Assembly: GCA_028284955.1 (NCBI GenBank)
Contig: JANQQS010000181.1
Span: forward strand, 1 to 64,000
DNA length: 64,000 nucleotides
Origin: Myxococcota bacterium
GTDB taxonomy: Bacteria > Myxococcota_A > Polyangia > Polyangiales > Houyiibacteriaceae
Direction: 5' to 3'
Below, one piece after another: positions 5,210-28,256 of this stretch (the first letter of the stretch is position 1; every line of letters begins with the position of its first letter). The notes beneath the pieces were generated by a model. It was not told where the DNA came from. It did not search any database and saw only the letters and a program-made list of their open reading frames with translations. A program made the translations under genes and the position numbers.

Positions 5210-5210
5210 T

Positions 5211-5579: not shown

Positions 5580-5616
5580 GGTCGCTTCCTTCGGATTATC
5601 GCAATTTATTTGCTTT

Positions 5617-5710: not shown

Positions 5711-7078
5711 ATGGCCTCTGATCTGAGCCGAAGACGTGTCTTGCGCAATGGACTCGCGGCAGGTGCGCTGCTGGGCGGGGGTGCGCTGGGTGGACTCGCG
5801 CTTCGAAACCGGGGTTGCGAGAATCGCGTCGACATGCAGACAGGTCGCGCCCAGTTGCGGGCGGACCCCAAAGGGATTCTCGACCTGCCCGCGGGCTTTC
5901 ACTATCGAGTGCTGCAAAGACATGGCGACCGAATGAGTGACGGCTTTCGGGTTCCCGCCGCGCCTGATGGCATGGGTTGCATCCCCATGAAGGTGGACGG
6001 CGCGAACGCGTGGGTCCTGATGCGCAACCACGAGCTCAAGGAAAGGCCAAGCCTCGATGATGAGGCAGGCGCCTTGCACACTGGTCAAGCTACGCCGTCT
6101 GAAACCTATCGACCCGAACACCGAAATCTTGGTGGCGTGTCTCGATTGGTGATCGACCCACAAACGCTCGCCGTACGAACGAGCAACCTCGTGCTCTGGG
6201 GCACGCGACTCAACTGCGCGGGCGGCGTTGCGCCAGGAGGGTGGCTGAGCTGCGAAGAGGCTGTGGAAAACGGCCACGGCCACGTGTTCTTTTGTGACGC
6301 CCGCGCGGCAAGCATACAGAGCCCACAACCGCTGCTCGCCTACGGCCGCTTTCGGCACGAGGCAGCCGCGTTCGACTCTGCAACTGGGATTTGCTACCTC
6401 AGCGAAGACCGCCCCGACGGGTGCTTCTATCGCTTCGTTCCCGATGCCCCCCGACGGAGTCTCTACGTTGGTCGTCTGCAGGCGCTTGCCATCGAGGGCG
6501 CTTCAAAGATGCACATGGCAACGGCCGAGAGAGGCGATACGTTCGCGGTTCGCTGGGTGGATCTCGATGCCCCGAACCCTACGAGCGATACGCTTCGGGA
6601 AGAAGCCGCCGACAAAGGCGCAGCGTGCTTTCGTCGCGGCGAAGGACTTTGCCTCGTCGCAGAAGCCAAAAGCGCACCAGCCCAGGTGGCGCTTTGTACG
6701 ACCTTGGGCGGTCAAGCCGATCAAGGCCAAGTCTTCGTACTTGCAGCCTCTGGCGAGTCGATCGCTGTCCTCGCTTCGTCATCCGCAGAGCAGCGCATGA
6801 ACATGCCAGACAACATTGTGCTCGCGCCGTGGGGCGATTTACTCTTGGCGGAAGACAGCTCAAAAACCTGCCACCTACAAGGCCTCAGGCTTGACGGGAC
6901 GCTCTACGACATCGCGCGCAATGCCGCGACGGGAAAAGAGTTCGCCGGCGTATGCTGCGCGCCGGACGGGCAAACCGTCTTCGTCAACATGCAAAAGGAA
7001 GGGCTCACGGTCGCGATTCGAGGACCCTTCGCTCAACTATCGAAGAATAGAAGGCGGACAACACAGCGTTCGGCGTAG
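5711..7078 (+). CDS. PhoX-type (DUF839) secreted phosphatase-like protein
   Basis: The 455-residue protein begins with a twin-arginine signal (SRRRVLRNGLAAGALLGGG), so it is exported folded. The mature part shows PhoX/DUF839 beta-propeller features: LPAGFHYRVLQRHGDRMSDG, WVLMRNHEL, a Cys-containing TRLNCAGGVAPGGWLSCEE, a central FRHEAAAFD and MPDNIVLAPWGDLLLAED. Characterised PhoX enzymes use Ca2+ and iron instead of zinc. Such a protein could replace a zinc-dependent alkaline phosphatase under zinc limitation; this is inference. Substrate specificity cannot be read from the sequence. The promoter carries Zur-like operator copy 2. ATG 5711 is the first start before the Tat motif. Confidence 0.8.
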   Translation: MASDLSRRRVLRNGLAAGALLGGGALGGLALRNRGCENRVDMQTGRAQLRADPKGILDLPAGFHYRVLQRHGDRMSDGFRVPAAPDGMGCIPMKVDGANAWVLMRNHELKERPSLDDEAGALHTGQATPSETYRPEHRNLGGVSRLVIDPQTLAVRTSNLVLWGTRLNCAGGVAPGGWLSCEEAVENGHGHVFFCDARAASIQSPQPLLAYGRFRHEAAAFDSATGICYLSEDRPDGCFYRFVPDAPRRSLYVGRLQALAIEGASKMHMATAERGDTFAVRWVDLDAPNPTSDTLREEAADKGAACFRRGEGLCLVAEAKSAPAQVALCTTLGGQADQGQVFVLAASGESIAVLASSSAEQRMNMPDNIVLAPWGDLLLAEDSSKTCHLQGLRLDGTLYDIARNAATGKEFAGVCCAPDGQTVFVNMQKEGLTVAIRGPFAQLSKNRRRTTQRSA

Positions 7079-7168
7079 CGGTTCCAAAAACGACGACCCC
7101 GCTTAGCCTTCGCCCTGCGTTTTCGCAGCACCCCGTCCGCCATGGACATCGAACGAGTCATCGCGGGG

Positions 7169-8242
7169 TTACGACGTCACGAGACAAGCGCGCAGCGTTT
7201 GTTCAAGGGTGTCTGCATTCGGAGGCCGCTTGCTCTCGATCACAATTTCTAGTCGCGAGTCCTTCCGGTCGCCGCGTTGCGTCACCTCTTCGATGCCATC
7301 GGCAAAGTTGAAGCCCTTCCATCCCTCATTGGTCCGTAGCACCGCCTTGATTCGGCGGGCGCCTGGCAATTGAGCCAGCTCCCGAAGCCAGCGCGACACC
7401 TGCTGGGCGTCAAAGACGAGCCCGTCCCAGCAGATCCAGCCCATCGTGGATGCCGCGGGCGAGCAATGAGAGCGCTGCACGATCGGCTGTGAGGCGTCGC
7501 AAATGAGCTCCACCGCCTGCTCCTGGGCAACTGTGTCATGTTCGTGAGCTTCGTGATGCTCAGGGTTGGTTCCAGGCGGGTGGTCGCTCCCGAGGAGGGT
7601 CGCACCTCGGTCGGCAACCAAATCAAGAAACTCCGGCGCGACACGCCCCTTCTCGATCTGTCCGACGAATCGTTTGACGGGTCGAAGCGCGTTCGCCCAC
7701 GAATAGAAAGAGCCAAGCTGGTCCGCGGTCGCGAGATCGGAACGGCCCGCCAGCAGGACATCCGCCGCCTCGATTTGATCCTGGACTTCCTCGCGGCTCG
7801 TAGCCTCATCGAGGCGGCAGGGATCGAGAAGGCACACCACAGAACGTACATCCACGCCTTCACTGAATCCGGGTCGGCCGAGCGTGCCCAGGATTCCCGA
7901 TGCCGTAGCCAACCCCGTCGGTTCGATCAGCAATCGATCGGGACGCCGCTGGAGCAAACGCATCAGCGACACTTCGAACATAAACGCGGCGCTGCAACAG
8001 ATGCAGCCGCCGGCAACCTCTCGAATCTCCACGCCAGGGGTCGCCCCAGATTCGGCGGTGGGCTGCATCAACGCAGCATCCAACCCGACCAGCCCATACT
8101 CATTCACCAGCACGGCCCACCGCTCGTTCGTAGGTCGATGCTCGAGCAGATGATTGATCGCGGTCGTCTTCCCGACCCCGAGAGGTCCCGCGATAAGGTT
8201 TACAGGAATCCGCCGGAAGGCCTTTTTGTTTTTTTCAGGCAC
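7169..8242 (-). CDS. CobW-family GTPase 1 (metallochaperone)
   Basis: The 357-residue protein has a G1/P-loop AGPLGVGKTT near residue 18, a GGCICC metal motif near residue 80 (the CxCC site of CobW/ZNG1 proteins) and LLIEPTGLAT. A histidine-rich linker, PEHHEAHEHD, lies around residue 223, before a CobW C-terminal domain. These GTPases move zinc to client proteins under scarcity. It is not close to the second CobW protein in this window and looks like a different subfamily. The start is GTG 8242. A perfect operator at 8274-8288 lies 32 bp upstream, which supports repression in zinc-replete cells. Confidence 0.88.
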   Translation of the reverse strand: MPEKNKKAFRRIPVNLIAGPLGVGKTTAINHLLEHRPTNERWAVLVNEYGLVGLDAALMQPTAESGATPGVEIREVAGGCICCSAAFMFEVSLMRLLQRRPDRLLIEPTGLATASGILGTLGRPGFSEGVDVRSVVCLLDPCRLDEATSREEVQDQIEAADVLLAGRSDLATADQLGSFYSWANALRPVKRFVGQIEKGRVAPEFLDLVADRGATLLGSDHPPGTNPEHHEAHEHDTVAQEQAVELICDASQPIVQRSHCSPAASTMGWICWDGLVFDAQQVSRWLRELAQLPGARRIKAVLRTNEGWKGFNFADGIEEVTQRGDRKDSRLEIVIESKRPPNADTLEQTLRACLVTS

Positions 8243-8273
8243 GCTCCGTCAGCGTAGGCAAACGATTGCCTGA

Positions 8274-8288
8274 TGCAAGCCGCTTGCA
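8274..8288. promoter_or_regulatory. Zur-like operator, copy 3
   Basis: TGCAAGCCGCTTGCA is perfect and extends to a 21-bp palindrome (8271-8291, arms TGATGCAAGC). It lies just upstream of CobW gene 1. A shorter GGCAA-N4-TTGCC repeat lies beside it at 8257-8270. Confidence 0.8.
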
Positions 8289-8322
8289 TCACAAAGACCT
8301 CGCTGCAACGACCTGGCGCGCA

Positions 8323-8487
8323 TCACCACTCGGTGTGCACGTGGGGATAGCCCCGAATCGCTTCGTCTCGTGTCACCAGTGTTGCCCCAAAGCGTCGGGC
8401 CAACGCCACGATGATCCGATCTGCTGGGTCGCGATGAAAATCACCCGCTGGCGCGCGATGACAGCTTATTGCAAGTGACTTGCGCAT
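8323..8487 (-). pseudogene. VapC PIN toxin remnant (C-terminal fragment)
   Basis: Read on the minus strand, codons 17-54 spell the last part of a PIN toxin: DFHRDPADRIIVALARRF, then GATLVTRDEAIRGYPHV and a Trp before TGA. Complete VapC proteins are about 125-140 residues, so the N-terminal two-thirds with the first acidic residues is absent. The frame stays open to an ATG at 8487, but the first 16 codons do not look like a PIN domain. That junction coincides with the Zur-like operator at 8470-8484. It is best read as the decayed end of a lost toxin-antitoxin locus. Confidence 0.7.
8470..8484. promoter_or_regulatory. Zur-like operator, copy 4 (one mismatch)
   Basis: TGCAAGTGACTTGCG matches the consensus except for the last base. 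It lies 94 bp upstream of the zinc-ribbon gene at 8578, its likely target, and at the broken end of the VapC remnant. Confidence 0.62.
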
Positions 8488-8577
8488 ACGCTATGAAGCT
8501 CCCTCGGTTCGCAAAACCTCGCACAACGCAGGTCTTCGCTCCGCTTCAGCGACACATGGCAGGAAAAGGATCTCAAC

Positions 8578-8889
8578 ATGTTTCGATGTGAATTGTGTGC
8601 AATCGTTCCTGAGTTCAAAGGACGCGGTCCCCGTGTATCTCGCCCGGGAGAGAAGTGCGTCATGGTCGCGACCGAGCAACGCCCTGCAGAATACCCAAGT
8701 CGGTCAAAAGCCCATCGAGTGCGCGTAGGTAGGAAGCCAAAATTCTTCGACGATCCAGGCGGGGCCGGGTACGAAATCGCGAAAGAAGTCAAGGCCTGCA
8801 CGCAGTGCGCAGCGGAGTATGCGACCATGCAGAAAGATGCGGAAGAAGCCGCGTACGGAACCTCGCGGTCACTTCACGTACTCGCTTAG
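8578..8889 (+). CDS. Zinc-ribbon-like hypothetical protein (two CxxC)
   Basis: The 103-residue protein opens with a CxxC (Cys4, Cys7 in MFRCELCAIV) and has a second CxxC at Cys74/Cys77 (ACTQCAAEY), a spacing that fits a zinc ribbon. Between them are a basic stretch (RPAEYPSRSKAHRVRVGRK) and a turn, FDDPGGAGYEIAKEV. I recall similar short proteins as uncharacterised in other genomes, but I cannot name the family. AGGAAAAGGA precedes the ATG at good spacing. An operator with one mismatch lies upstream. A zinc-binding protein induced when zinc is low might act as a sensor, store or zinc-independent variant; that is open. Confidence 0.68.
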   Translation: MFRCELCAIVPEFKGRGPRVSRPGEKCVMVATEQRPAEYPSRSKAHRVRVGRKPKFFDDPGGAGYEIAKEVKACTQCAAEYATMQKDAEEAAYGTSRSLHVLA

Positions 8890-8932
8890 ATGGACAGCCG
8901 CATACCGGCAGATGGACAGCCGCATACCGGCC
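8889..8932. repeat. 22-bp tandem duplication
   Basis: Two copies of GATGGACAGCCGCATACCGG plus two bases lie at 8889-8910 and 8911-8932, immediately at the stop codon of the zinc-ribbon gene. They differ only in the last base. Confidence 0.9.
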
Positions 8933-8941
8933 ACAGGCATC

Positions 8942-9172
8942 TCAATCCCCGTCGACCGTCATCACTGCCGCGACATTCGCCACAAGCCACGCGGACGCAG
9001 CGAACAACTGCAACCAATCCCCGGTGGAGCTGATGCCGTAGGCGAGCACGCTTGCGATCCAGCAGAGGCTGGCAATCGTTTGTCCGAGCCATTCGATGCG
9101 CAGCGCTCGGGCGAATCGGCTTCGCACCGGACCCGACACGACGACTTCGTCATTCCCCGTTAACATACGCAT
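8942..9172 (-). CDS. Small two-helix membrane protein
   Basis: The 76-residue protein has two hydrophobic segments, ASLCWIASVLAYGIS (about residues 34-48) and LQLFAASAWLVANVAAVM (about 54-71), and a basic N-terminus (RSRFARALRIEW). It is probably an inner-membrane hairpin. Its start overlaps the end of the flavoprotein gene by 13 bp (ATG 9172; ATG 9166 is an in-frame alternative), so it is the third gene of the CobW2-flavoprotein operon. Function is unknown. Operon position suggests it anchors or assists the flavoprotein during zinc limitation, which is inference. Confidence 0.7.
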   Translation of the reverse strand: MRMLTGNDEVVVSGPVRSRFARALRIEWLGQTIASLCWIASVLAYGISSTGDWLQLFAASAWLVANVAAVMTVDGD

Positions 9173-10287
9173 TCCTCTCCGCAGCAGGAGAGGTCATCCA
9201 GGTACATGCCCCACCTGCGGTAGTATGCCTCGAGGTCGTCCGTCGGTAGCCCGAGCGAGGTGGCGATGGCTTTGGCGACAATGGCAAATCGTTGTCGATA
9301 TTTGTAGATAAAGCAGAAGACGTGATTGTCGTGACGAACCGTCGGGCCACAGAGAAAGAGCCCTGGCACGATGGTGGATTCGTCGTTCTCGCTGAGCAGC
9401 GGAAAGCCATCTTCGCGTCGCTCAAAAAAATCCTGGACGAACTTGAGACTCCCTTCGAAACCGCCGGCGAGTAGCGGCTTCGACTTCGTGTGAAATCGCT
9501 GCCCTTCAAGTGCCGCGACTTCGTACCCGTCATCTTCGGCGGTCACCGAGACAATGGGCATGTACGGAAACAGTTCCACGTGCTCGACAAACCGGCTTTG
9601 GCGCATTCGTTCAAGTGAGTAGGTAGATAGCGCAACACTGGGGTCGGAAGTCTCAGTCTTCCACGGGCAACCTCTGTCAAACATGCGTACTCGTTTGCCC
9701 CGAAGCGCGAGGTGGTACGCCGCGTCGACGCCGCTTTCGTAACCACCCACCACGACGAAATCGTCACCTTCAAGATCTTCGTAGCTGGCAATGGTCGCGG
9801 TATGGTGACAGAGCGCGCTGCCCGCGAACCCATTCAGACGTGGATATTGGAACTCGCCAGCGGCCCAAATCACATGCTTGGCGTGCAAGGTCTTATCGGA
9901 TGTGTCTATGTGAAAGCTGTCGCCATCGTTGGTGACTCGCTCTACATCGGTATGCTCGAATACCGGCAGGTCAAAGATTTTCGCGACTGCGCGCAAGTGC
10001 AGCGCGTACTCTTTTCCCGTCGGATGTTCGAGCTCCAAGCTGAACGCGGGCGAGACCCCGATCGCAATCGAATTCAAATCGAGCATGCCAACCGAGTTGG
10101 TGGGAAACGAGGGCGTGATGAAGCGAGTCTCGGCTGGCCACAAGTCGAACGATGCGCCGACCGTATGACGTTCCACCACGACGAAGTTATCGATACCTGC
10201 GTGCCGGAGCGACGCCGCAGCACCCACGCCTGCAGCACCGCCACCGACGACGATCACATCGTAGACGTTATCGCGGGCGCCGATCAC
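9160..10287 (-). CDS. FAD/NAD(P)-binding oxidoreductase coupled to CobW
   Basis: The 375-residue protein starts with an FAD-binding Rossmann motif, [19 protein letters not shown], and has a second nucleotide-binding motif, [19 protein letters not shown], near residue 160. This is the two-dinucleotide fold of flavin monooxygenase or thioredoxin-reductase-like enzymes. The redox substrate is unknown. The C-terminus has a Cys cluster, SCCGEECVC, that could bind metal. The start is taken as GTG 10287 because it forms a GTGA overlap with the stop of CobW gene 2; the frame is open upstream but lies within that gene. Tight coupling suggests the enzyme works with the GTPase. Confidence 0.82.
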
Positions 10288-11516
10288 GCAGAACCCCCAG
10301 TCATCTGCAGCTCCGGAAAGGGATTTTGGAACTTTGCCCAGGTCTTGCTGTCGGCGGAGGCAAGGCGCTTCTCGAGCAGACATGCGTCCAGGCGAGCGCG
10401 CATCGCCGCTTCGTCCATCTGCTGGCCGATGAACACGAGTTGCTGAGCGCGATCGCCGAAGCGAGGATGCCAATTGGGCTGCTCATCGGGACGCGGTCCT
10501 CCGGAGACCCAGCGGTCGCGAGGCACCGCCGCCCACCACATCCCCGCGGCGTTCACATTGCTGACGCCGCCGGCTTGCGCCCACTCGTATGCGATCCGGT
10601 GGTCCGCGGCGACCCAGAAGAAGCCTTTTGAACGGAGCACCCCGCGCCAGTTCTCGTCGTTGTGAAAGAAGGCCCACAGTTTCTCCGCATCAAAGGGCTG
10701 CGATGTTCGGTAGGTGAAGCTCGAGATCCCGTATTCCTCGGTCTCCGGCGTATGCTCTCCTTGGAGCTCTCGAATCCAACCAGCGGAGCTTTCTGCTTTC
10801 TCGTAATCGAAGAGGCCCGTGTCGAGCACGCTTTCTAGCGGGACGCGACCACGCGTCGCCATGAGGATCTTCGCGCCAGGGTTCAGCGCCTTCACAATGG
10901 CCTCGACCTCGAGAGCCTGCTCTTTGCTGACGAGGTCGAGCTTGTTGAGCACGATGACGTCTGCAAATTCAATCTGGTCGATGAGCAGATCGGTCACTGT
11001 CCGATGATCTTCTTCGCCCAGCGACTCACCGCGGTCCTGAAGCGCCTCGGAGGCGTTGTAGTCCCGTAGGAAGCTCGCCGCGTCCACGACCGTAACCATC
11101 GTGTCGAGGCGCGAAACCTGACTTAGACTCACGCCATTCTCGTCTTCAAACGTGAAGGTTTGCGCGACGGGAATGGGCTCAGAGATGCCCGTCGACTCGA
11201 TGAGCAAGTAGTCGAATCGCCCTTCTTGAGCCAGGCGCGAAACCTCGGCGAGTAGGTCGTCGCGCAAGGTGCAACAGATGCAGCCGTTCGACATCTCGAC
11301 GAGCTTCTCTTCGGTCCGCGAGAGTTCCGCCCCCCCTCGTTCCACGAGCGCGGCGTCGATGTTGACCTCGCTCATGTCATTGACGATCACCGCAACCCGG
11401 CGCCCTTCACGGTTGTTGAGCACCTGATTGAGCAGCGTCGTCTTTCCCGCGCCGAGGAAGCCTGACAGCACGGTGACGGGAAGGCGCGGAGCGTCGGTCG
11501 ATCGGAGGTCTTCCAT
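10284..11516 (-). CDS. CobW-family GTPase 2 (ZigA/YciC-like zinc chaperone)
   Basis: The 410-residue protein has P-loop [11 protein letters not shown], acidic [12 protein letters not shown], the metal motif [12 protein letters not shown], the GTPase signatures [11 protein letters not shown] and VLNKLDL, and a long C-terminal CobW_C domain ([22 protein letters not shown]). This matches the ZigA/YciC group, a classic Zur-controlled family that delivers zinc to low-zinc enzymes. It is the first gene of an operon with the flavoprotein and the small membrane protein. Two operators (11567-11581, perfect; 11595-11609, one mismatch) lie in its promoter. Confidence 0.93.
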
Positions 11517-11566
11517 GGGTCTCCCGAAAGCTAGGGGCGAAACTGTGTTCGCGATCGAACTGCTTC

Positions 11567-11581
11567 TGCAAACCAGTTGCA
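11567..11581. promoter_or_regulatory. Zur-like operator, copy 5
   Basis: TGCAAACCAGTTGCA is perfect; the arms extend to TTCTGCAA and TTGCAGAA. It sits 51 bp upstream of CobW gene 2. Confidence 0.8.
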
Positions 11582-11594
11582 GAAAGTCTATATA

Positions 11595-11609
11595 AGCAAA
11601 CGGCTTGCA
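11595..11609. promoter_or_regulatory. Zur-like operator, copy 6 (one mismatch)
   Basis: AGCAAACGGCTTGCA lies 28 bp from copy 5, centre to centre, so two dimers could bind nearly on one DNA face. The right half is also part of the perfect palindrome TTGCATATGCAA (11605-11616). Confidence 0.62.
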
Positions 11610-11722
11610 TATGCAACCTCATGCCCATAACTTTTCGCACGCCGCGGCCGTTCGGTGACTCTTCCGCGACGACTGCTCCCACGTCGCCGCCGGGAAGCAT
11701 TTCGTGGTGCTCCGTCGATGCC

Positions 11723-12199
11723 CTAGCGTTTTCGCACCCTTTGCTTCGGAGCGCTGTCCTTCCCTTTCGTTTGCGCAGCAAGGCAATCGGGGCAGTCGCC
11801 GATCAACTGCATCTCAGCGGTGTTTAGCGATTGGCCCCAGCGTCGATCAATGGGGCCAGCGAGTTTCGCCTTCGGCAGGCATTCCACCGCGCCGCAGATT
11901 CGGCATGAGAAATGAGGATGAAGGTGCAGATCGTCATCCTCGCCTCGAGCTTCATAGCGGCTAACACCGTTGACTTTACTTGCGATGCGCGCCAGGCCGA
12001 ATTCTACAAGTTTGAGAAGATTCCGGTAGAGCGTGGCTTGGTCCCAGTTCTCCGTGCCAATCGCTTCGACCACTTCGGTATGAGACAACGGCTTCTTAGA
12101 AGTCGAGAGCAATCGCAGCACCGCAACGCGAGGCGCTGTCGCACGAAGACCGACGTCATGAATTCGCTGTTTTGCGTCGTCGCGGGTGATGTCGTCCAT
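11723..12199 (-). CDS. zur: Fur-family transcriptional regulator, probably Zur
   Basis: The 158-residue protein has the Fur winged helix (GLRATAPRVAVLRLL and ATLYRNLLKLVEFGLARI) followed by the metal-binding dimerisation domain. That domain has HLHPHFSC, a first CxxC (CRIC) and a second CxxC (CPDC) for the structural zinc. Sequence alone does not separate Zur from Fur or PerR. The neighbours (two CobW GTPases, DUF1826, MerC, AztD-like chaperone) make Zur the best reading. With zinc bound, it would dimerise and repress TGCAA-N5-TTGCA sites. An operator with one mismatch at 12294-12308 suggests autoregulation. Confidence 0.88.
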   Translation of the reverse strand: MDDITRDDAKQRIHDVGLRATAPRVAVLRLLSTSKKPLSHTEVVEAIGTENWDQATLYRNLLKLVEFGLARIASKVNGVSRYEARGEDDDLHLHPHFSCRICGAVECLPKAKLAGPIDRRWGQSLNTAEMQLIGDCPDCLAAQTKGKDSAPKQRVRKR

Positions 12200-12225
12200 A
12201 CCGCTAGCACACTAGATGCTGGCGC

Positions 12226-12237
12226 TTGCAGGTGCAA
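12226..12237. promoter_or_regulatory. Palindrome upstream of zur
   Basis: TTGCAGGTGCAA is a 5+5 inverted repeat with a 2-bp spacer, 27 bp before the zur start. It resembles the TTGCATATGCAA palindrome at 11605-11616 and may be a variant regulator site. Confidence 0.4.
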
Positions 12238-12293
12238 TCACATCCTAGAATTTTCGCGAGTTTATGCGGTCGTTTTGCGCGCTTGATTGTTTG

Positions 12294-12308
12294 TGCAACT
12301 GACTTGCG
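12294..12308. promoter_or_regulatory. Zur-like operator, copy 7 (one mismatch)
   Basis: TGCAACTGACTTGCG is 95 bp upstream of zur and downstream of the SnoaL-like gene, so zur is the likely target (autoregulation). Confidence 0.6.
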
Positions 12309-12329
12309 TCAGTACCCGGCGCCCGCGAA

Positions 12330-12384
12330 CCCAGATCAGCTCAATCGGCCCGATCGACCCAGCCAGCCCGATCAACTCAGTCCG
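12330..12384. repeat. Degenerate 18-bp tandem repeat at a gene end
   Basis: Three imperfect units begin CCCAGATCAG, CCCGATCGAC and CCCGATCAAC at 12330, 12349 and 12367. The last unit contains the stop codon of the SnoaL-like gene. Confidence 0.6.
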
Positions 12385-12895
12385 ATGGTGGCATCCATGT
12401 CAGGGAGGAGTGATGAAGCGAGATCAGCACTTTCCCCGACAGCTTGTGATAAGCGAACGTGTAGTCGGCGCGGGTTGCATCGCCGTTTCCTTTGACAAAG
12501 GTGTAATGGCCCATGTCTTTGTAGCCTAGACCCCCTGCCTTAAGAATCGGCCCCACGGCACTTTGAAAGTCTACGTGCTTCCATCCGTGGTTCAAAAACC
12601 CGCCGTCGTGAGGGTAGTCCGCGTCACCTCCCACGAAGTAGGAGCGCGCCCCTGCCTCATCCAAACGAATCACATCCGCCAACGTGGGTTTGAAGAGCAA
12701 CGGTTCATCGGGCGAACCAAAGTCATAAAGCCCAAGAAGTGTCTCTACGTCTTGATCGATGACGGCCTTGGCCCACGATCGCTGCGCGTTGATCACTTCC
12801 GCTTTTGTCATCTTTTCGAATTGTCTCACGCCGACCTCGCCAGGTTCAGGGGATCGACAAGGACCATCGAGGAGGTTTGCCGGTGAGTCAAGCAT
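12377..12895 (-). CDS. SnoaL-like protein of the zinc-cluster type
   Basis: The protein resembles a SnoaL/NTF2-like fold family that is sometimes labelled phosphoribosyl-AMP cyclohydrolase and is found beside CobW genes. Visible parts are ALLFKPT-like LLFKPTLADVIRLDE, SYFVGGDADYPHDGG, MGHYTFVKGNGDATRADYTF and LISLHHSSLTW. Charged and histidine residues could form a metal or ligand pocket. The start is uncertain: ATG 12895 follows GGAG and gives 172 residues, whereas ATG 12811 gives 144 residues and better matches where homology seems to begin. The gene is divergent from folE. No clear operator was found in the shared 69-bp region. True enzymatic function is unknown. Confidence 0.72.
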   Translation of the reverse strand: MLDSPANLLDGPCRSPEPGEVGVRQFEKMTKAEVINAQRSWAKAVIDQDVETLLGLYDFGSPDEPLLFKPTLADVIRLDEAGARSYFVGGDADYPHDGGFLNHGWKHVDFQSAVGPILKAGGLGYKDMGHYTFVKGNGDATRADYTFAYHKLSGKVLISLHHSSLTWMPPSD

Positions 12896-12964
12896 GCTCC
12901 ACCACTTTAATCGCCTGACCCAGGCTGTTTGCGTCGGCCATCGGCTCGCTCTAGGCCTCCGGGT

Positions 12965-13597
12965 ATGAACCGGAAGGCTTTCGCCCTCGTCGCCGCCGCC
13001 GAGGAGCATCGGCAGAACAACGCAAAGCACCGCCCGAGCCGGGAGGAGGCGGAGGAAGCCGTTCGGACGCTCCTACGATGGGCTGGCGAAGACCCCACGC
13101 GCGAGGGTCTTCGGGGCACCCCTGATCGGGTCGTTCGCTCGTACGAAGAGTTCTTCGCGGGCTACGCGGAAGACCCCGTCGAGATTCTCAGCCGTACGTT
13201 CGACGAGACCGCCGGCTACCATGAAATGGTCTTGCTGAAAGGCATCCGTCTCGAAAGCCACTGCGAGCACCACATGGTGCCCATCATCGGCGTCGCGCAT
13301 GTGGCGTACTTGCCTCAAAGCCGGGTCGTCGGCATCAGCAAGCTCGCACGCGTCGTCGAAGCGTTTGCGAAGCGCCTGCAGATTCAGGAAAAGCTCACCG
13401 CCGAAATCGCCAACGCCATCGACCTAGTGCTCGAACCTCGGGGCGTGGCCGTGGTCATCGAAGCGTCGCACCAGTGCATGACAACCCGCGGTGTACACAA
13501 ACCCGGCGTCGACATGGTCACCTCGCGCATGCTTGGTGACTTTCGCGAACACGCCGAAACGCGACGCGAGTTCCTCGCGCTTATTGGCAAGAGCTAG
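12965..13597 (+). CDS. folE: GTP cyclohydrolase I (type IA)
   Basis: FolE converts GTP to 7,8-dihydroneopterin triphosphate, the first step of folate and tetrahydrobiopterin synthesis. The 210-residue product carries the zinc ligands in [10 protein letters not shown] (Cys and His) and [11 protein letters not shown] (Cys). It also has [19 protein letters not shown] and [20 protein letters not shown]. It is therefore the zinc-dependent form, not the zinc-independent FolE2 usually placed in Zur regulons. ATG 12965 is used. The gene is divergent from the SnoaL-like gene and is followed by the metallothionein gene. Confidence 0.95.
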
Positions 13598-13756
13598 CGT
13601 CAGCGAACCCACACGACGGCAGCCGGCTCATCCACGGATGGGCAAGGTAAGTGTACGAGTCGCAGGCGCAAGAAGAGCGAGTGTAAGAATTGCAGGACCG
13701 CTACCGTCAACGTCGATAGAAGCCCAAACGGAGGGCTCTGCGCGAAGGAGGTAGCG

Positions 13757-13915
13757 ATGCAAAAGGAATGTGAGTGTGCATGCAAACAGTGCCCGAGCCC
13801 GTGCTCGTGTGAGTGTTCGACAGCGCGAGACGGCAGCTGTTGTTGCGGAAAAGACTGCACCTGCGGAGACGACTGTCGCTGCGAACCGTCCTGCGGCTGT
13901 CCAACCGCGAAGTAG
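13757..13915 (+). CDS. Bacterial metallothionein-like protein
   Basis: This gene encodes only 52 residues, 16 of which are cysteine (positions 5, 7, 9, 12, 16, 18, 20, 28, 29, 30, 34, 36, 40, 42, 46, 48). There is no histidine and almost no hydrophobic residue. Cys-X-Cys and Cys-Cys-Cys spacing (for example DCTCGDDCRC) is the hallmark of metallothioneins, which bind zinc, copper or cadmium as thiolate clusters. A strong AAGGAGGT site precedes ATG 13757 at ideal spacing. It lies 159 bp after folE and 145 bp before the AztD-like operon. No TGCAA-N5-TTGCA site precedes it, so its regulation is unclear. The His-containing bacterial SmtA fold is not evident; this looks more like an all-Cys type. 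Confidence 0.85.
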   Translation: MQKECECACKQCPSPCSCECSTARDGSCCCGKDCTCGDDCRCEPSCGCPTAK

Positions 13916-13974
13916 AAACCAGTAGTTGGCTCGCACAGGATCAACGCCGACGAAAAAAGCAAGCCCCTTCCATT

Positions 13975-13989
13975 TGCAAGCTGTTTGCA
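13975..13989. promoter_or_regulatory. Zur-like operator, copy 8
   Basis: TGCAAGCTGTTTGCA is perfect and lies 71 bp upstream of the AztD-like gene. It differs from copy 1 only in one spacer base. Confidence 0.8.
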
Positions 13990-14059
13990 TTTGAACTAGC
14001 GTCGCTCTCTCGGCCGCGGCGGCCGAAGTGGTGAAGAACCATGAATATCGAGGAGCGAC

Positions 14060-15433
14060 ATGGAACGAAATAGCAAACAGTCGTTTGCGTGGGCGTTGAT
14101 CCTTTGTGTGGCTTCGGTCGGATGCGGCGATGAAACCGGCGGAGAGCTCGAGCAAGACATCGACCCGAATGCAGCGGAACCAACGACGCCGGACGGTCAA
14201 GCAGGCTCGGATGATCCCGCGGATGGCGTAGTGGACGTGGGCGAGCAATCGTGGGGCCGACTGCTCGTCGGCAACGGCGCGGCAGACGCCACAACGGTGC
14301 CCGTCGTGGACTTAGACGATGCATCGCTCGCTGAGACATTAGAAGTATCCGGACCCTCCCGGGTCTACGCCAGCACGTCCAGCCGCTACGGGTACGCGGT
14401 TCAGACAAGCGCCAACGCGGTCGACGCCATCGACCCTGGGCTTGTGTTTGTGAGTCACCTAGACCACTACCACCTCGAAGACGGCGACCCTCAAGTGATC
14501 GCAGACGAAGTGTTCTCGATTCGATGCCCCACGCCGATTCATTTCGTCGCGCATGACGAATGGGCAGCTGCCTTTTGCGATGGCGACGGCGTCGCCCATG
14601 TGTTCTCCGAGCGATCTATCGGCGCCGATCTAAGAATGCTCGAGGTCCCGAGCGGACGAAGCCATCACGGAGTCGCGCTGGTGACTTTGGGTGCAATCTT
14701 GGTTTCGGAGCCTGACCCCGACGACGAAACCAACCGGCTGCCGATCGGCATGCGAGCGTACGGCCTGGATGGCACCCCGGGCGAGGTATTTGCCGAATGC
14801 CCCGGGCTCCACGGCGAAGCATCCAACGACGAGAGCGCATGCTTCGGCTGTAGCGATGGCGTCATGTGCCTGAGCCAGAATGGCGACGATCTCGAAGCAA
14901 CCAAACTCCCGAACCCCGACGGCACGCTCACCGGCGTGCGCGTCGGCCGAATGGTGGTCGCGCATGGCGATGGTCCCTTCGTGGGCAACTGGGGCCCTCA
15001 GGGCGTGGCGATCCTCGATCCCTCAGATGGGACTTTTGAACCATTGTCGCTGGGGGAAGATATTCTTACCTTCGCCATCGACGAGAAGGGCGAATACCTC
15101 GTTGCGCTCAGCGCGGCCGGCAACCTGCTCAAGGTCCATTTGGAAGACCGTGAAATCAAGGAGACCCTTGCCATCATGCCTGAGTTCGTCGTCGAACCAG
15201 GCCACGGTCAGCGGCGCCCCGCACTCGCGGTGAGCTTCGCCCGGGCCTACGTCGTCGACCCGCGCATGCCAAGCGTGATCGAGGTCGACTTGGCAACCTG
15301 GGAGGAGACCGGACGAACGCTTGCGCTTCCAGACGGCGGCGAGTACCACAGCCTGGCGCTGGTGGCGCAGCCGCCCGAAGGGGCACGCCCGGGCGAGAAA
15401 TCGAAACCTGACTCGAACAATACAAGCCAGTAG
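14060..15433 (+). CDS. AztD-like zinc-binding beta-propeller lipoprotein
   Basis: The 457-residue protein has a lipoprotein signal (FAWALILCVASVGC) and an acidic mature start. The rest resembles the zinc chaperone AztD. There is a histidine-rich loop VSHLDHYHLEDGDP (about residues 136-150), then TPIHFVAHDEWAAAFCDGDG, SGRSHHGVALVTLG, and several propeller blades such as GPQGVAILDPSDGTF. AztD hands zinc to the AztC binding protein of an ABC importer, but no aztABC genes are in the window. Here it is lipid-anchored and followed 36 bp later by a TonB-dependent receptor, so an outer-membrane capture role is inferred. A GAGGAG site precedes ATG 14060. Operator copy 8 lies upstream. Confidence 0.75.
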   Translation: MERNSKQSFAWALILCVASVGCGDETGGELEQDIDPNAAEPTTPDGQAGSDDPADGVVDVGEQSWGRLLVGNGAADATTVPVVDLDDASLAETLEVSGPSRVYASTSSRYGYAVQTSANAVDAIDPGLVFVSHLDHYHLEDGDPQVIADEVFSIRCPTPIHFVAHDEWAAAFCDGDGVAHVFSERSIGADLRMLEVPSGRSHHGVALVTLGAILVSEPDPDDETNRLPIGMRAYGLDGTPGEVFAECPGLHGEASNDESACFGCSDGVMCLSQNGDDLEATKLPNPDGTLTGVRVGRMVVAHGDGPFVGNWGPQGVAILDPSDGTFEPLSLGEDILTFAIDEKGEYLVALSAAGNLLKVHLEDREIKETLAIMPEFVVEPGHGQRRPALAVSFARAYVVDPRMPSVIEVDLATWEETGRTLALPDGGEYHSLALVAQPPEGARPGEKSKPDSNNTSQ

Positions 15434-15469
15434 CCGGGCTCGAACGACCACGACTCCGAGCTACCGGAC

Positions 15470-18055
15470 ATGAACGCGGCGTCGCCTGGCTCGCTCAGGC
15501 ACGTCGCGTTCGTGCAGTGGAGATCGTCGACGATGTGTGGACGCTATGGGGCGCTCCCAATAGGAATGTGGGCGACCACGATGGTCGGGTTTGGATCGCT
15601 TTTCGCGGAGCCCCTTGCGGCTCCCGTCGCGGCGCAAGACGCCGCAGAATCGTTTCAGCCCGACGCGGGTCCCGAATCCGATCCAGAGGCCGACTCCAAA
15701 GCCGAAGCCGAAGCTGAACCAGAACCAGAACCCGGAACCGAGCCCAACTCCGACGCTGAGACAGAACCCGACCCAGAACCCGAACCAGAAGCTGAACCAG
15801 AAGCTGAAGCCGAGCCGAATCCCGGTGCCGATCCTGGTCCCACCGCCGATCCCGAACCAGAACCTGATCCCGAACCTGAAACCGCTGCCGATCCTGAAAC
15901 AGAAACCGCCGCCGAGTACTCACCCGACGAAGACTATGAATACGGCGCAGTCGCAGAAGTAGAAGCGGACATCGAAGAGAAAAAGCTCGCTGCACCAAGC
16001 GACTTCGACATACAGCTCGGAGCCCTGGCGCGGGTGCCTCGAGCCGATGCCCAATCGATGCTAACGCTCACTCCGGGCGTATTTCTCAGTCAACACGCCA
16101 CCACCGGCCACACCGCGGGCATGTTCTTGCGAGGGTTCGACGCCGCGGAAGGCGAAGACTTGGAAGTCACCGTGGAAGGTATCCCGCTCAATGAAGTCTC
16201 TAACGCGCACGGCCACGGCTATACAGACACCGGTTTTGTGATGCCGGAGCTCGTGCACGGATTGCGGGTCATCCAAGGCCCCTTCGACCCGGCCCAAGGC
16301 GATTTCGCGGTCGCGGGCAGCGTGGACTATCGCCTCGGGCTTGAGGAGCGCGGCGTGCACGCGAAAGCAGGCTACGGCCGATTCGGGGAGCGACGCGCCG
16401 GGCTCTGGTGGGGCCCGAAAGGACAATCGACGGGCACGCTTGCCGGATTGAACCTCCACGCGGGGGATGGATTCGGGCCAAACCGTGCCTTCGAGAACGG
16501 CAGCGTCCTCGGTCAATACGAGGGCACGGGCCGGAATGCGGAGCTTCGCTATCGAGTGCTCGCGTTCGCCAGCGCTGCGAGCTGGGACACGGCGGGGGTG
16601 GTGCGTCAGGATGATTTCGAGGCGCGGCGGCTACCTTGCGAAAACGACCGTGATAGCCAGTTGTTCTGTCTCTACGACCCCAACCAGGGCGGCAGCAGCC
16701 AGCGCGTCGGGGTCAGCAGCTCGGTTGCCTGGCGCTCACCTAACCAGCTGATTGACGCACGAGTGTTCGCTCTGGGCCGCGGTCTCGAGATCCGCGAAAA
16801 CTTCACGGGCTTCAACAACGACCCGCGCACCGATGGCGGGGCCCAGCGCGGCGACCTCGCAGAGCAGCGCTACCAGGCGTTGACGGCCGGCCAGCGAACC
16901 ACGTACCGGCAGCAGTTTCGAGGCCTCGGCCGTGAGCAGGAGGTCGAGGTAGGAAGCTACCTTCGCTTTGACCAAGTCGACACCCGGACCGACCGCCTTC
17001 GCGATGAACTCGGGGTCCCCTACCGCACAGACTTCGATCGAGAGATTCAACAAGTCAACCTCGCGGGCTACATCAACGGCAACCTCGCGCTGCTCGACTG
17101 GTGGGATGTGGTGGTCGGAGTTCGGCTTGACTACTTTGGCTACCAGGTCGAGGACAACAACTTTCCCACCGAAGACCGCATTGGCGAGCGTTTAGGCCGC
17201 GCGACGTCGACAGCAAACGGCTTTGCGGTCCAACCACGGGGCAGTCTGCGCTTTCGCTTGGTGAAGGACCTGACCTACTTCATCAGCGGGGGATGGGGCG
17301 CGCGGTCGAGCGATGCGGCAGCGCTATCGGAAGGCGAGTTTGCGCCGTTTGCTCGCGTGGTGGCGACCGAAACGGGGCTCATCTGGGCCCTTCAAGGCCA
17401 GAGCCGCAACAGGCATGCATTCGAAACTGCATTCGAAACTTGGGACCTCGAGTGTCGCGCATCTGCGTTTTTCACTCGCGTCGAACAAGACCTCGTGTTT
17501 GATCCAGTCGCAGGGCGGAACTCGCTCGTGGGGCCCACCCACCGAATGGGCGTGATGGGGTACGTCAAAAATCGCCTTGCGTCCTGGCTGAGCCAGCAAG
17601 CCTCGGTGACCTACACCGAAGCGCGGCTGGCCACCGGCGGCTTACGCGGCAGCGAGCTGGTTCCGTTCGTGCCTCGTTGGCTGCTTCGTTGGGATGTGGC
17701 CGCCACGCACTACTTCAAGATGCGCCGTCAGGCCTTTCTCGTGGGCGCCGGGTTTGGTTTGTCCCATGTGGGTCGACGGCCGTTGCCGCTCAGTGAGTTT
17801 GCCCAGCCCTTCACCATCGGTTCGGCTTCCGTTACCGCGCGCTGGCGCTGGCTCGAGCTTGGCGTGCGTGCTGAAAACCTTTGGAACGTCCGTTATCGGG
17901 CGGCTGAGTTTAACTACCCCTCGAACTTCGACGGCCCGAGCGCACCCACTTCTTCTCTACCCACGCGCCATTTTGCGGCTGGGCCGCCGTTCACCGCGCT
18001 CGCCGAGCTGCGCTTGCACTTCGACTTCGAAGGTTCAAAAACACCTCGTCAATAA
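15470..18055 (+). CDS. TonB-dependent receptor, probable zinc uptake
   Basis: The 861-residue protein has a signal peptide (the actual start may be ATG 15533, giving [13 protein letters not shown]...), then about 110 residues rich in Glu, Pro and Asp. A plug domain follows ([56 protein letters not shown]), then a long beta-barrel ending in LRLHFDF. It would import a metal or metal complex with TonB energy. It sits between the AztD-like lipoprotein and two more lipoproteins. Zinc is inferred from the operon and operator, not from the barrel itself. The acidic Pro/Glu extension is unusual because such regions normally belong to TonB. A 12-bp tandem duplication occurs at 17415-17440 (AFETAFET). 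Confidence 0.85.
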
Positions 18056-18087
18056 ACGCCGGCTTCTGAAACCAAGGCAATCATCCC

Positions 18088-18990
18088 ATGCGCCACGCTT
18101 CGCGACACATTCTGAGGTCACACATTCTGCGACTCCATCGCGCTCTCGGCACACGTTGCGCTCTGCGGACATGTTTGCTCGCCGCTACGCTGTCTGTGCT
18201 CGCGGCTACCCTGTCGAACGCCTGCGTCGACTCAACACCGGGGGAACGCGTTGATGTCCCTGTGGCCTTGGCCGCGCCCAACAGCGCCGACGAAAGCCCC
18301 CAAACATCCGGCCTGCAGACATTCACCGTCGGAGAAGAGGGAACCTGGCGCGTGCAGCTGACCGCGGCGGAGGTCGTTATCACGCGGTTGTCGGTATACG
18401 CCCCGCCATCAACGCAGGTGGCGGGTTGGAGGCCGTGGCGACTGAGCCGAGCTCATGCCCATGCCGGAGACGACAATCTCGAAGGCGCAGCCTTATTGGC
18501 CGAGCTGCGGACCGCGAATACAGTCGATCCGCTCACTCCATCGCCCGGGGATCTGGGGCTCGCATCCGGACGCAGCGGCGAGGTCGACAAAGTGTCGGTG
18601 TCCTACGGCGCGCTTGCCTCGAGCGAGGGCGACGATCCCGTCCATCTTCGAGTCAAGGGAAACGCCAGCGACGGATCTCGCTCCGTAGAATTCGAAGCTC
18701 ACGGGTCTCTCCCTGAAACGCCGCTCGGCCAACGCCTCAATGCGATCTCGCTCAACGGGCCTCGTCAACTCACCCGAGAGACAACCTTGCAATTGCGATT
18801 TCTTCCCGAAGTTTGGTTCGCCCAGGTCGATTTCGACCAGGTCGCGGCGCTGGCGCCAGACCGCGACGGAGTGCGGCGCCCGACAAGCGCCGACCAAATG
18901 ACCGTGGCGCTGTCCCTCGGGCTACGAAACCCACAGGCGCTACTTGCCGAACTCGTCGCCACCGAGCCCGAACAATCATCTCGGAGGTAA
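18088..18990 (+). CDS. Hypothetical lipoprotein in the zinc-uptake operon
   Basis: The 300-residue protein has an arginine/histidine-rich N-terminus, a hydrophobic segment (LLAATLSVLAATLSNAC) and a lipobox Cys. No family was recognised. The mature part contains a His-bearing SRAHAHAGDDNLEG segment near residue 125, a beta-rich middle and an extended strand, TTLQLRFLPEVWFAQVDFDQ. It follows the receptor gene by 32 bp and is separated from the next gene by one base, so it belongs to the same transcript. It may help substrate binding at the cell surface, but this is based on position only. Confidence 0.7.
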   Translation: MRHASRHILRSHILRLHRALGTRCALRTCLLAATLSVLAATLSNACVDSTPGERVDVPVALAAPNSADESPQTSGLQTFTVGEEGTWRVQLTAAEVVITRLSVYAPPSTQVAGWRPWRLSRAHAHAGDDNLEGAALLAELRTANTVDPLTPSPGDLGLASGRSGEVDKVSVSYGALASSEGDDPVHLRVKGNASDGSRSVEFEAHGSLPETPLGQRLNAISLNGPRQLTRETTLQLRFLPEVWFAQVDFDQVAALAPDRDGVRRPTSADQMTVALSLGLRNPQALLAELVATEPEQSSRR

Positions 18991-18991
18991 G

Positions 18992-19954
18992 ATGTTTCCC
19001 CGTAACGCTTCTCATCATCACAAACATGCATGTCATCGCAAACGCGTATGGCTCTGCGGGCTAGCTTGGATTGTCTGCGGGTCCGGCTGCAGCGGAACAG
19101 CAGAAGAAGTGGCCCTGGGTATCGGCGGCAATGATGAGGGCACCCTTGTCATTCGCGCGCACGGAGGCGTCGAGGCTCAAGAAGGAATCGATTCGAGCGT
19201 GTTCTCCGATGGCTATGCGGTGCGCTTTGACAGCGTGCTGCTGTCGATTACCGCCTTCTCGCTCGGCCACAGCGAGGGCGGCCGCAATGACGGCAACACC
19301 GCAGACCTGGATGTTTCGCCCACTGTCGTCGAGCTGGTTCCCATGCCCGCCGATCTCTTTCGTTTTGAAGGCCTCGCGGCCCGGCGCTGGGATCTGCTTG
19401 GCTGGCGAATCGCGCCTCCCCCAGAGGATGCGGTGGTGCACTCTTCGGCAGAAGCCGAAGCTGTCGAGCAAATGCAGCAGAATCGCTGGTCGAGCCTAAT
19501 GCGCGGGCAGCTTATTGCCCCAAGTGGCGAACGGTATGAATTTTCGGTTGGGTTCCCGCTAACCATCGATTATCTCGACTGCGTGTCCGGCACGGATGGC
19601 GGCTCGGGCATTGTGGTGCCTCGCAACGGCGTGGCCGAGGGAGAAATCACCTGGCACCTGACCCATGCGTTTTTTGATTCCTTCGCCGAAGAATCGAAAC
19701 TTCGCGCCGAATCGTGGGTTGCGAGCGCCAACGATCAATCGTTTATCGACAACGCAGCGCTCGCAACGCAGCAGCTTGCAAACCTTCGCGATCGCGATGA
19801 CGGCCTACTCCTCGACCCGACAACCAAGCTTCCCGTCGTCTACATCACGGCCGGCGACGAAGCCATTTCGACCCTGGAAGAGTTCGTGACCCGCGCCCGC
19901 TTCGGCCACTTCAACGGCCTCGACGGCTTCTGCCAAACCGAAGTCAGCGAATAA
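18992..19954 (+). CDS. Hypothetical lipoprotein, last gene of zinc-uptake operon
   Basis: The 320-residue protein starts at ATG 18992, preceded by GGAGG that overlaps the stop codon of the previous gene. The N-terminus has a striking HHHKHACH run before a hydrophobic segment and a lipobox (WIVCGSGC). The mature part includes GTLVIRAHGGVEAQEG, RFDSVLLSITAFSLGHSEGG, ERYEFSVGFPLTIDYLDCV and WHLTHAFFDSF, suggesting a beta-rich domain. No named family was recognised. Acidic and histidine residues are frequent, which could fit metal binding, but this is not demonstrated. Confidence 0.72.
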   Translation: MFPRNASHHHKHACHRKRVWLCGLAWIVCGSGCSGTAEEVALGIGGNDEGTLVIRAHGGVEAQEGIDSSVFSDGYAVRFDSVLLSITAFSLGHSEGGRNDGNTADLDVSPTVVELVPMPADLFRFEGLAARRWDLLGWRIAPPPEDAVVHSSAEAEAVEQMQQNRWSSLMRGQLIAPSGERYEFSVGFPLTIDYLDCVSGTDGGSGIVVPRNGVAEGEITWHLTHAFFDSFAEESKLRAESWVASANDQSFIDNAALATQQLANLRDRDDGLLLDPTTKLPVVYITAGDEAISTLEEFVTRARFGHFNGLDGFCQTEVSE

Positions 19955-25979: not shown

Positions 25980-27154
25980 ACCCGTCGCCTCCTGAAGAGC
26001 CCAACATGAATCGAGCCCAAACGAACGATGCCGATAACGTAATGGACGCGCGCGACCACCGAGAGTGGGTCGCGCCGCCCAACGAAGCGGTTCGACTGCG
26101 GCGGATTCAGAGCGCAGTTCGCGACCGCGTAGGTCATTCACAATCCGTTCGCTCATGGCGCCGATGGATGAGCAACCCTTATGTTTGGGGACCTTCTTCG
26201 TTTGTGCTGGGCGCCGGTTTGGTCGCCCTCGCGGTGTTCTCAACGGTTCGACCTCCTCATCCCCAACCCGACGCCGCACATTCGCGGTCAACGACAGCGA
26301 CTCCGGAGCAACCAGAACTATGGCAGGACACGAACCTGCATACCGAGCAGACGTCGCGCACCGTCCGCTTGGCAGACGAATCGACAATCGACGCGCAGCC
26401 GCACACGTTCGTGGAAAACATCTCGAGCACGTCATCGCAAGTCGTACTGGCTCTGCATCGCGGGTCAGCAACCTTTGATGTCGCTAAGAACCCTGCGCGG
26501 CGCTTTTGGGTGATGGCAGACGACGTGCGCGTCGAGGTCGTGGGCACGCGGTTTTCGGTTCGCCGACAACCCGCCGATCCTCACACCGTGGAAGTCTCGG
26601 TATCCCGAGGCCGCGTGTTGGTACATACCGCAACCGGCACGTCTCGAACGCTTGACCCTGGCGACCAGGTACGCACGGCATCGCGCGCCCCAAAGGCCAC
26701 CCCTTCGCTCGAAGACAACGCAGATGCAAAACCACGAGTCGCAGGCCACGCCCGCGCCCACACGAAACCGCGCGCCACCCCCAAGACCGCAGCCGAGCTC
26801 ATCGAACGCGGATCGATGGCCCGCCAATCCGGCCGAATTGACGACGCGCTCGCCGCCTACGAAACACTGCTTCGTCTCTACCCTCGTGACGCCCGTGCAG
26901 CCCTCGCTGCGTTTGAGCTCGGACGTTTGCACATGGACAAGCGTCGCAATCTGCGCAGCGCAGCTCGCGCATTCGAAACCGCGCTCCGAGATGCACCGAA
27001 TTCTGTTTTTTCAGAAGACGCACGCGCACGGCTTGTGCAAATCTACGATCGATTGGGCCCAAGCGCACAATGCGTACGCAAGCAACGCGACTACATCGCC
27101 AGCCACCCAAGCGGACGACACATGCGAAAAATACGCCTTTTGTGCGAAAAATAA
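25976..27154 (+). CDS. FecR-domain anti-sigma-like protein with TPR
   Basis: The 392-residue protein has a cytoplasmic N-terminus (about 1-65), one transmembrane helix (YVWGPSSFVLGAGLVALAVF, about 67-86) and a FecR domain (RLADESTIDAQPHTFVE, VEVVGTRFSVRRQ, VEVSVSRGRVLVHTATG). The C-terminus contains tetratricopeptide-like helices (GRIDDALAAYETLLRLYPRD). FecR proteins sense periplasmic state and control the ECF sigma factor encoded beside them. There is no obvious TonB receptor gene next to it, so the usual FecIRA signalling by an iron receptor is not evident. Coupling by ATGA supports joint function. Confidence 0.83.
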   Translation: MNPSPPEEPNMNRAQTNDADNVMDARDHREWVAPPNEAVRLRRIQSAVRDRVGHSQSVRSWRRWMSNPYVWGPSSFVLGAGLVALAVFSTVRPPHPQPDAAHSRSTTATPEQPELWQDTNLHTEQTSRTVRLADESTIDAQPHTFVENISSTSSQVVLALHRGSATFDVAKNPARRFWVMADDVRVEVVGTRFSVRRQPADPHTVEVSVSRGRVLVHTATGTSRTLDPGDQVRTASRAPKATPSLEDNADAKPRVAGHARAHTKPRATPKTAAELIERGSMARQSGRIDDALAAYETLLRLYPRDARAALAAFELGRLHMDKRRNLRSAARAFETALRDAPNSVFSEDARARLVQIYDRLGPSAQCVRKQRDYIASHPSGRHMRKIRLLCEK

Positions 27155-28188
27155 GCCTTCCATGCGCGTTCGCTATATCGTCGGTGCTTGGCATCTCGTC
27201 GGCGGGAAGCGCGCAAGAACGCCCACCCTCTGCAACTGACGACTGCGAAGCGCATGGCCCCCCCATCGTCATTCTCTTGAATGGACCGCGCTGGTCACCC
27301 GCGTTTCGAAAACAAGTTCTCTCAAACCTCCAAGCTACGCTCCGCGACCAAGGATTTTCGCTCTGCACAAACCAAGCGCTCGAAGCGCGCGCGCCGGCCA
27401 CTGTCGAAATTCGAACCCACGAACTTCCTCGGGTATCGGTAGGCATCGAAATTCGCGATCGGGTCACCCGCAAACGCGTCTCCCGCTCAGTTGACCTCGC
27501 AGAATTCCCTCAAGACGCGCGGGCGCTGGCGCTCGCGGTAGCCAGCGACGAACTCCTGAGGGCTAGCTGGATGGAGCTTGCGCTCAGCGACTCCGCCGCC
27601 TTCGTTCGCCCGCCGCCGCCTGCTGTTCGGAACACCGTGGCCCGAGAAACCCGGCAGGCCGCGCGCACCTGGCTCGGGCTCGCGTTTGCGTGGGAAAGCT
27701 ACCGGGGCGGTGAGCACCACCTCGGCGGCGACTTCACGCTCACCCATTGGTTTCGTTCTCGCATTCGACGGCGACCCCCACGCTGGGGCTTGGACCTATC
27801 CCTCGGCGGCCGCTCAGGTTTGCGCGCCCAATCGACTAGCGGAAGCGTACGCGCCACCGTATTCTCGGCCGGCCTCGTGCTGCTCGTTCGTCTAGCTTCG
27901 GGCTCAACGAGCGGCCTCTCCGCGCTTCTCGGAACCCGCATCGCCTACGTATCCTTCGAAGGCGATGCGCGCGCCCCCGCGCGCGACGATCAAAAAGCCG
28001 GAATCCTCGGCGAAGCACGCATCGGGCTGCGCGCATCGCTGCGGGTACACCGAGCCATCAAACTCCGCATCGATGGCGGCGCGCTTGTCCCCATCCAAGG
28101 CGTCGAAGCCCAAGACGGCGAAGAACGAGTCACCGCCGCAACCAGCGTCGGCGCATTCCTAAACAGCGGCGTAGCGTTTGGGTTCTAG
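27142..28188 (+). CDS. Secreted beta-barrel-like protein of the sigma operon
   Basis: The 348-residue protein has a signal peptide (KISLPCAFAISSVLGISSAGSA), then a small alpha/beta region with IVILLNGPRWSPAFRKQV, and a beta-rich second half that ends in GVAFGF, typical of outer-membrane barrels with a C-terminal aromatic. No family was recognised. GTG 27142 is used because the signal peptide begins there; the longest frame (ATG 27070) lies mostly inside the FecR gene. It overlaps that gene by 13 bp, so it is likely the output of the sigma/FecR system. Confidence 0.65.
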   Translation: MRKISLPCAFAISSVLGISSAGSAQERPPSATDDCEAHGPPIVILLNGPRWSPAFRKQVLSNLQATLRDQGFSLCTNQALEARAPATVEIRTHELPRVSVGIEIRDRVTRKRVSRSVDLAEFPQDARALALAVASDELLRASWMELALSDSAAFVRPPPPAVRNTVARETRQAARTWLGLAFAWESYRGGEHHLGGDFTLTHWFRSRIRRRPPRWGLDLSLGGRSGLRAQSTSGSVRATVFSAGLVLLVRLASGSTSGLSALLGTRIAYVSFEGDARAPARDDQKAGILGEARIGLRASLRVHRAIKLRIDGGALVPIQGVEAQDGEERVTAATSVGAFLNSGVAFGF

Positions 28189-28256
28189 AGAATGGGACTA
28201 AGCACTAGCGTTGAACGAAATAGCGTCGACTGACAACTCGTAGTACGGAGGTGGTC

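Follow-up and report, generated by a model that had tools for sequence, protein, structure and literature searches.

A candidate Zur-controlled operon for outer-membrane zinc import with an AztD-like lipoprotein, a TonB-dependent receptor, and two lipoproteins of predicted MbnP fold in a Myxococcota bacterium

Results

Organization of the four-gene operon

The window described here, a stretch of 64,000 nucleotides (contig C5), belongs to a genome of 6.07 Mb that is 96.6% complete and distributed over 223 contigs. Named relatives suggest a placement of the organism in or near Sandaracinaceae, of the order Polyangiales (Myxococcota). Four co-directional genes span positions 14060–19954 of its plus strand, separated by gaps of about 36, 32, and 1 nt. 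They encode, in this order, an AztD-like lipoprotein of 457 residues (14060–15433), a TonB-dependent receptor (15470–18055), and two further lipoproteins, called A (18088–18990) and B (18992–19954). The best start of the gene for lipoprotein B is the ATG at 18992, positioned behind GGAGG, and not the TTG at 18944. An initial annotation of this DNA had placed an AztD homologue with a lipobox directly before a receptor and two lipoproteins, and this layout is confirmed by homology, by the common direction of the genes, and by the short gaps between them. A scan for sigma-70 promoters found no site and is uninformative.

The candidate Zur operator and the surrounding zinc-response genes

A candidate Zur operator, ATTTGCAAGCTGTTTGCATTT (13972–13992), precedes the start of the AztD gene by about 68 bp. 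Its core, TGCAA-GCTGT-TTGCA, is a palindrome of the form TGCAA-N5-TTGCA, in line with the perfect operator of the initial annotation. Another perfect palindrome, the GC-rich 8-1-8 element TCGGCCGCGGCGGCCGA (14010–14026), lies between the operator and the AztD start. Seven copies of the TGCAA-N5-TTGCA palindrome are present in the window, all within its first 14 kb. When the window was scanned with a 21-bp matrix trained on sites of the same genome and of one relative, sites of at least 20 bits were found at 3041, 5614, 11564, 11592, and 13972, all within positions 1–14,000; those at 5614, 11564, and 13972 had been used for training, and those at 3041 and 11592 were outside the training set. 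Weaker sites occur at 8271 and 8467, the remaining 50 kb contain nothing comparable, and no 20-bit site (0.0) arose in 60 random sequences matched to the window in length and nearest-neighbour composition. The pattern TTTGCAANNNGTTTGCA, with at most one mismatch, has five matches in 6.07 Mb, all adjoining zinc-type genes, compared to three for the reversed control. Since this count is hardly above that of the control, weight is placed on the matrix, on the gene context, and on the relatives described below.

Starting from the left end of the window, the box at 3041 accompanies a gene for a DUF1826 protein (2342–3031, minus strand; PF08856, E=1.1e-44), and the box at 5614, the strongest in the window, a gene for a PhoX-family alkaline phosphatase (5711–7078, plus strand; PF05787, E=3.8e-53). 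The weaker box at 8271 is found at the gene of a second COG0523/CobW GTPase (7169–8242, minus strand; PF02492, E=1e-35), and the pair at 11564 and 11592 at that of the COG0523 zinc metallochaperone GTPase ZigA (10284–11516, minus strand; NF038288, 631.9 bits with a cut-off of 600). A FUR-family regulator, presumed to be Zur, is encoded at 11723–12199 (minus strand; PF01475, 43 bits), and in two related loci, L098 and L099, its homologue and zigA are attached to the genes for AztD, the receptor, and lipoproteins A and B. Most genes beside the operator copies are well-known low-zinc response genes, and alkaline phosphatase of the PhoX type does not use zinc. COG0523 proteins and aztD are listed among the low-zinc response genes (PMC5387054). 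The hallmark of a Zur regulon, an operator common to zinc-response genes with a FUR-family gene nearby, is present here, and the FUR-family protein would be the Zur that binds these candidate operators.

Three other genes lie in or next to this cluster. FolE (12929–13597) was considered as a zinc-sparing paralogue and rejected, as it is the sole FolE found in the genome. A protein resembling metal-independent carbonic anhydrases (12377–12859, minus strand; NCBIfam E=5e-18, under the cut-off) may serve to spare zinc. A very Cys-rich, metallothionein-like open reading frame of 52 residues (MQKECECACKQCPSPCSCECST..., 13757–13912, plus strand), placed between folE and the operator of the AztD gene, has no family match. 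Contig C124 carries a palindrome of the same type as that at 13972, perfect over arms of 12 bp, ahead of the gene of a second AztD lipoprotein, aztD2 (locus 26254–30692), which is followed by two TldD/PmbA-like genes, and another Zur-type site on this contig precedes one of two hisI genes.

The AztD-like lipoprotein

The first protein of the operon matches the AztD family model NF038015 with E=1e-46 and 159 bits, under the model cut-off of 400 bits, as well as the crystal structures of AztD (6cmk, E=3e-35; 6ck1, E=3e-30). It starts with a lipobox (LCVASVGC22) that is followed by an acidic linker and, by homology, a β-propeller. In AztD from Paracoccus denitrificans, site 1 is formed by His124, His167, and His218, and site 2, from which zinc donation has been shown, by His99, His102, Asp104, and His408, the last of these conserved at 68% (PMC6689063). 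All three histidines of site 1, as well as the positions of His99 and His102, are kept in the alignment, which assigns His161, His202/203, and His251 to site 1 and His133, His136, and His138 to site 2, with a histidine replacing Asp104 as the third ligand. The C-terminal His408 of site 2 has no clear equivalent in the alignment with the P. denitrificans protein, and the cysteine pair of the disulfide is kept (Cys247–Cys264). In an alignment of 14 AztDs, most of which belong to this group with few exceptions, the histidine triad of site 2 is present in 12, whereas site 1 is complete in 8 and lost in 6, making the zinc-donating site 2 the better kept of the two.

A lipobox near the N terminus is found in most AztDs of related loci. 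The lipobox and the +2 residue of the protein described here only suggest anchoring in the outer membrane, with its inner leaflet an equally possible location. The AztD of one related locus (L063, 2219–3928) carries a long C-terminal tail of repeated His, Asp, and Gly residues. A plasmid of Pseudoalteromonas piscicida (L106, 5830–7182) encodes an AztD-like protein with a lipobox and a His/Asp-rich N terminus, with no ABC genes seen nearby; a lipidated AztD lacking ABC neighbours exists, therefore, outside Myxococcota as well.

The TonB-dependent receptor

Both the plug (PF07715, E=7.8e-8) and the barrel (PF00593, E=2.2e-9) of the receptor score over the gathering thresholds, and no PDB chain is matched by its sequence at E 0.01. 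The plug carries the motif AHGHGYTD, and ahead of it the receptor has a very long acidic N-terminal extension rich in Glu, Asp, and Pro (15530–15960). The substrate of the receptor cannot be read off its sequence. The AztD-linked receptors, including this one, form a single clade with a support of 0.914. This clade also includes one receptor with no AztD (L073), which nevertheless has a strong Zur-type site, while receptors outside the clade have neither an adjoining AztD nor a Zur-type site. With a threshold of 12 bits, 9 of the 11 loci of the AztD clade have a Zur-type site, compared with none of the 8 loci that have other receptors (Fisher p=0.0007, for loci that are not fully independent). 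Two loci of the AztD clade (Polyangium L057/L095 and L059) carry weak sites only.

Lipoproteins A and B

The two remaining proteins, described earlier as unknown lipoproteins, are both present, with cysteines that are conserved in their families and lipoboxes that are weak in the copies from the window; a predicted fold can now be added to that description. Profile comparison relates A to B with a probability of 97.5% (E=6e-12). No credible family was found for either in Pfam or NCBIfam, whether searched singly or by alignment, and a sequence-profile search of the PDB returned nothing. The lead was given by predicted folds. AlphaFold2 models (pLDDT 83 for A and 88 for B) have MbnP (7l6g) as their top match, with Z 9.3 over 196 residues and an rmsd of 4.4 for A, and with Z 9.9 over 192 residues and an rmsd of 3.7 for B, the next unrelated chains reaching Z 5.4 and 6.6, respectively. 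Foldseek alone is merely suggestive, with best E values of 1.5e-3 and 9e-3. No curated MbnP sequence model is listed for any member of the A and B families at E up to 1, and no di-haem partner of the MbnH type is recognized beside the module by counts of multiple CxxCH motifs in open reading frames. For these two reasons, A and B are called MbnP-like in fold and are not filed as MbnP. Lipoprotein A has a conserved A-x-A-H motif, whereas His222, His225, Asp229, His306, Cys197, and Cys314 are invariant in B, where the three histidines and the aspartate are plausible metal ligands. A and B are homologous proteins of predicted MbnP fold that form with the receptor a conserved and more widely distributed module.

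Conservation in Polyangiales and other Myxococcota

Of the 379 genomes of the phylum sample, 63 encode lipoprotein B, usually with the receptor and lipoprotein A. AztD is rare, with matches in 15 of the 379 genomes, about nine of them convincing and some marginal. It is repeatedly encoded beside the receptor, together with lipoprotein A, lipoprotein B, or the two of them, in UBA1660, G173, ACE_MYX11, an uncultured member of Myxococcales, Polyangium fumosum, Polyangium sp. 15x6, G347, Labilithrix, and a Polyangiaceae bin. About ten loci that have diverged to protein identities of about 23–50% share the association of the four genes, in co-directional as well as divergent arrangements. When a matrix made from the sites of this genome alone was applied to the 300 bp before each aztD, a Zur-type site was found in all 12 cases from other Polyangiales (p 0.002–0.038 each), while the control aztD of Pseudoalteromonas had none (p=0.49). 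Copies of the receptor–A–B module that are free of AztD have no Zur-type sites. Because such sites and AztD are confined to loci of the AztD-linked receptor clade, the general module of a receptor and two lipoproteins appears to have a zinc branch, to which AztD belongs.

The inner-membrane step

No ABC importer genes are present in the window, in agreement with the initial annotation, and a search of the genome, at 96.6% completeness, for a more distant partner gave no match to the ZnuA (PF01297) or ZnuB (PF00950) families. These families are also unmatched in G345 and G377 (90% and 82% complete), although both are present elsewhere in five of nine AztD-bearing genomes, where AztD could feed a solute-binding protein. 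A ZIP importer was rejected as the inner-membrane step, the sole match being under the family cut-off and part of a fusion with a Cu/Zn efflux-like part of the SO_0444 type. Such a fusion is encoded at L079, 1201–3060: its N-terminal part is ZIP-like, its efflux permease is of the SO_0444 Cu/Zn type, and its tail is rich in His. As far as this genome is sequenced, the inner-membrane step appears to be made with neither ZnuABC nor AztABC.

Discussion

The AztABCD systems of P. denitrificans and Citrobacter koseri (PMC6689063) share with the operon the AztD family, ligands of both sites, the disulfide, Zur-type regulation, and a COG0523 neighbour. In turn, the AztD described here is a lipoprotein encoded beside a TonB receptor with no AztA, AztB, or AztC genes, its site 2 has His in place of Asp as the third ligand, and its score is under the AztD model cut-off. 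ZnuD of Neisseria (PMC4557270) and ZnuK, ZnuL, and ZnuM of Caulobacter (PMC4176598) are likewise TonB receptors under a Zur-type operator, although that of Caulobacter is GTTA-N5-TAAC rather than TGCAA-N5-TTGCA, and the available text of these reports describes no accompanying AztD or MbnP-like lipoproteins. MbnP (7l6g; PMC3621798) also has TonB receptor neighbours, whereas A and B are two lipid-anchored paralogues. In TbpB/TbpA and HpuA/HpuB (PMC7857515), the genes of a lipoprotein and a TonB receptor are likewise paired to exploit a metal source that is scarce; here, a putative surface pair of this kind would use a lipoprotein of the zinc-binding AztD family. ZepA of Anabaena (PMC10957091) is another extracytoplasmic protein under the control of Zur that aids zinc uptake, but it is a secreted PEP-CTERM protein with a β-sandwich domain and not an AztD. 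The only link between AztD and TonB found in the literature is a Paracoccus expression study, in which they are separate genes.

The operon is probably a Zur-repressed module for zinc import across the outer membrane, with AztD as a lipid-anchored carrier. Of the zinc capture proposed by the initial annotation, a zinc-responsive outer-membrane uptake operon with a lipidated AztD and a receptor, and with no dedicated ZnuABC or AztABC, can be retained, as the Zur-type sites, the zur and zigA neighbours, the retained zinc ligands, the conserved synteny, and the missing ZnuA and ZnuB all agree. As zinc falls, Zur would leave the operator and the four genes would be made; the receptor would move zinc, either free or bound to a chelator, across the outer membrane, and AztD would bind it in its high-affinity sites and pass it on from site 2. 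AztD may either load the receptor from the outside or receive zinc from it within the periplasm. Lipoproteins A and B would be accessory metal-binding proteins or partners of the receptor, as their fold, the invariant His and Asp residues, and their constant linkage suggest. A more specific version, in which AztD is exposed on the surface, captures zinc there, and docks on the receptor as a TbpB/SusD-like partner together with the two MbnP-fold lipoproteins, replacing its ABC-coupled use in a bacterium with no ZnuABC, is offered only tentatively.

The location of AztD is also the basis of the strongest alternative, for which the chances are somewhat below even. If anchored to the inner membrane, or to the periplasmic leaflet of the outer membrane, AztD would act as it is known to do, as a zinc chaperone or buffer of the periplasm, and the receptor would only supply zinc to that compartment, with no contact between the two. 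Lipoproteins face the periplasm by default sorting, aztD2 on contig C124 has no receptor alongside, and the AztDs of G345 and G377 also have none beside them within the stretch seen. However, the repeated linkage of AztD to the receptor and the shared receptor clade suggest more than common regulation, and no AztC-like recipient was found in this genome. In an unlikely alternative, what the module takes up is a zincophore, a chelator that binds zinc, or a different metal (copper, for example), and AztD and Zur adjust it no more than indirectly. The predicted fold of A and B matches that of a methanobactin operon protein (PMC3621798), and the AztD-free copies with no Zur-type sites indicate that the module is not in itself dedicated to zinc; nevertheless, the copies of the AztD clade do bear these sites, in places with zigA and zur as neighbours, and the MbnH-type multi-haem gene is not recognized beside them. 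A chance neighbourhood of unrelated genes under one regulator, a coincidence that the rarity of AztD in the phylum might allow in a few lineages, is strongly disfavoured by the recurrence of all four genes in divergent loci and is very improbable.

The way in which zinc passes the outer membrane has been established for few receptors, and studies of AztD have dealt with its role in assisting an ABC importer. The proposed zinc import module would place the AztD family in a second setting, would link an orphan lipoprotein fold to identified partners, and would supply a candidate Zur operator for Myxococcota. As a cultured strain, P. fumosum DSM 14668, carries all four genes, this proposal is testable.
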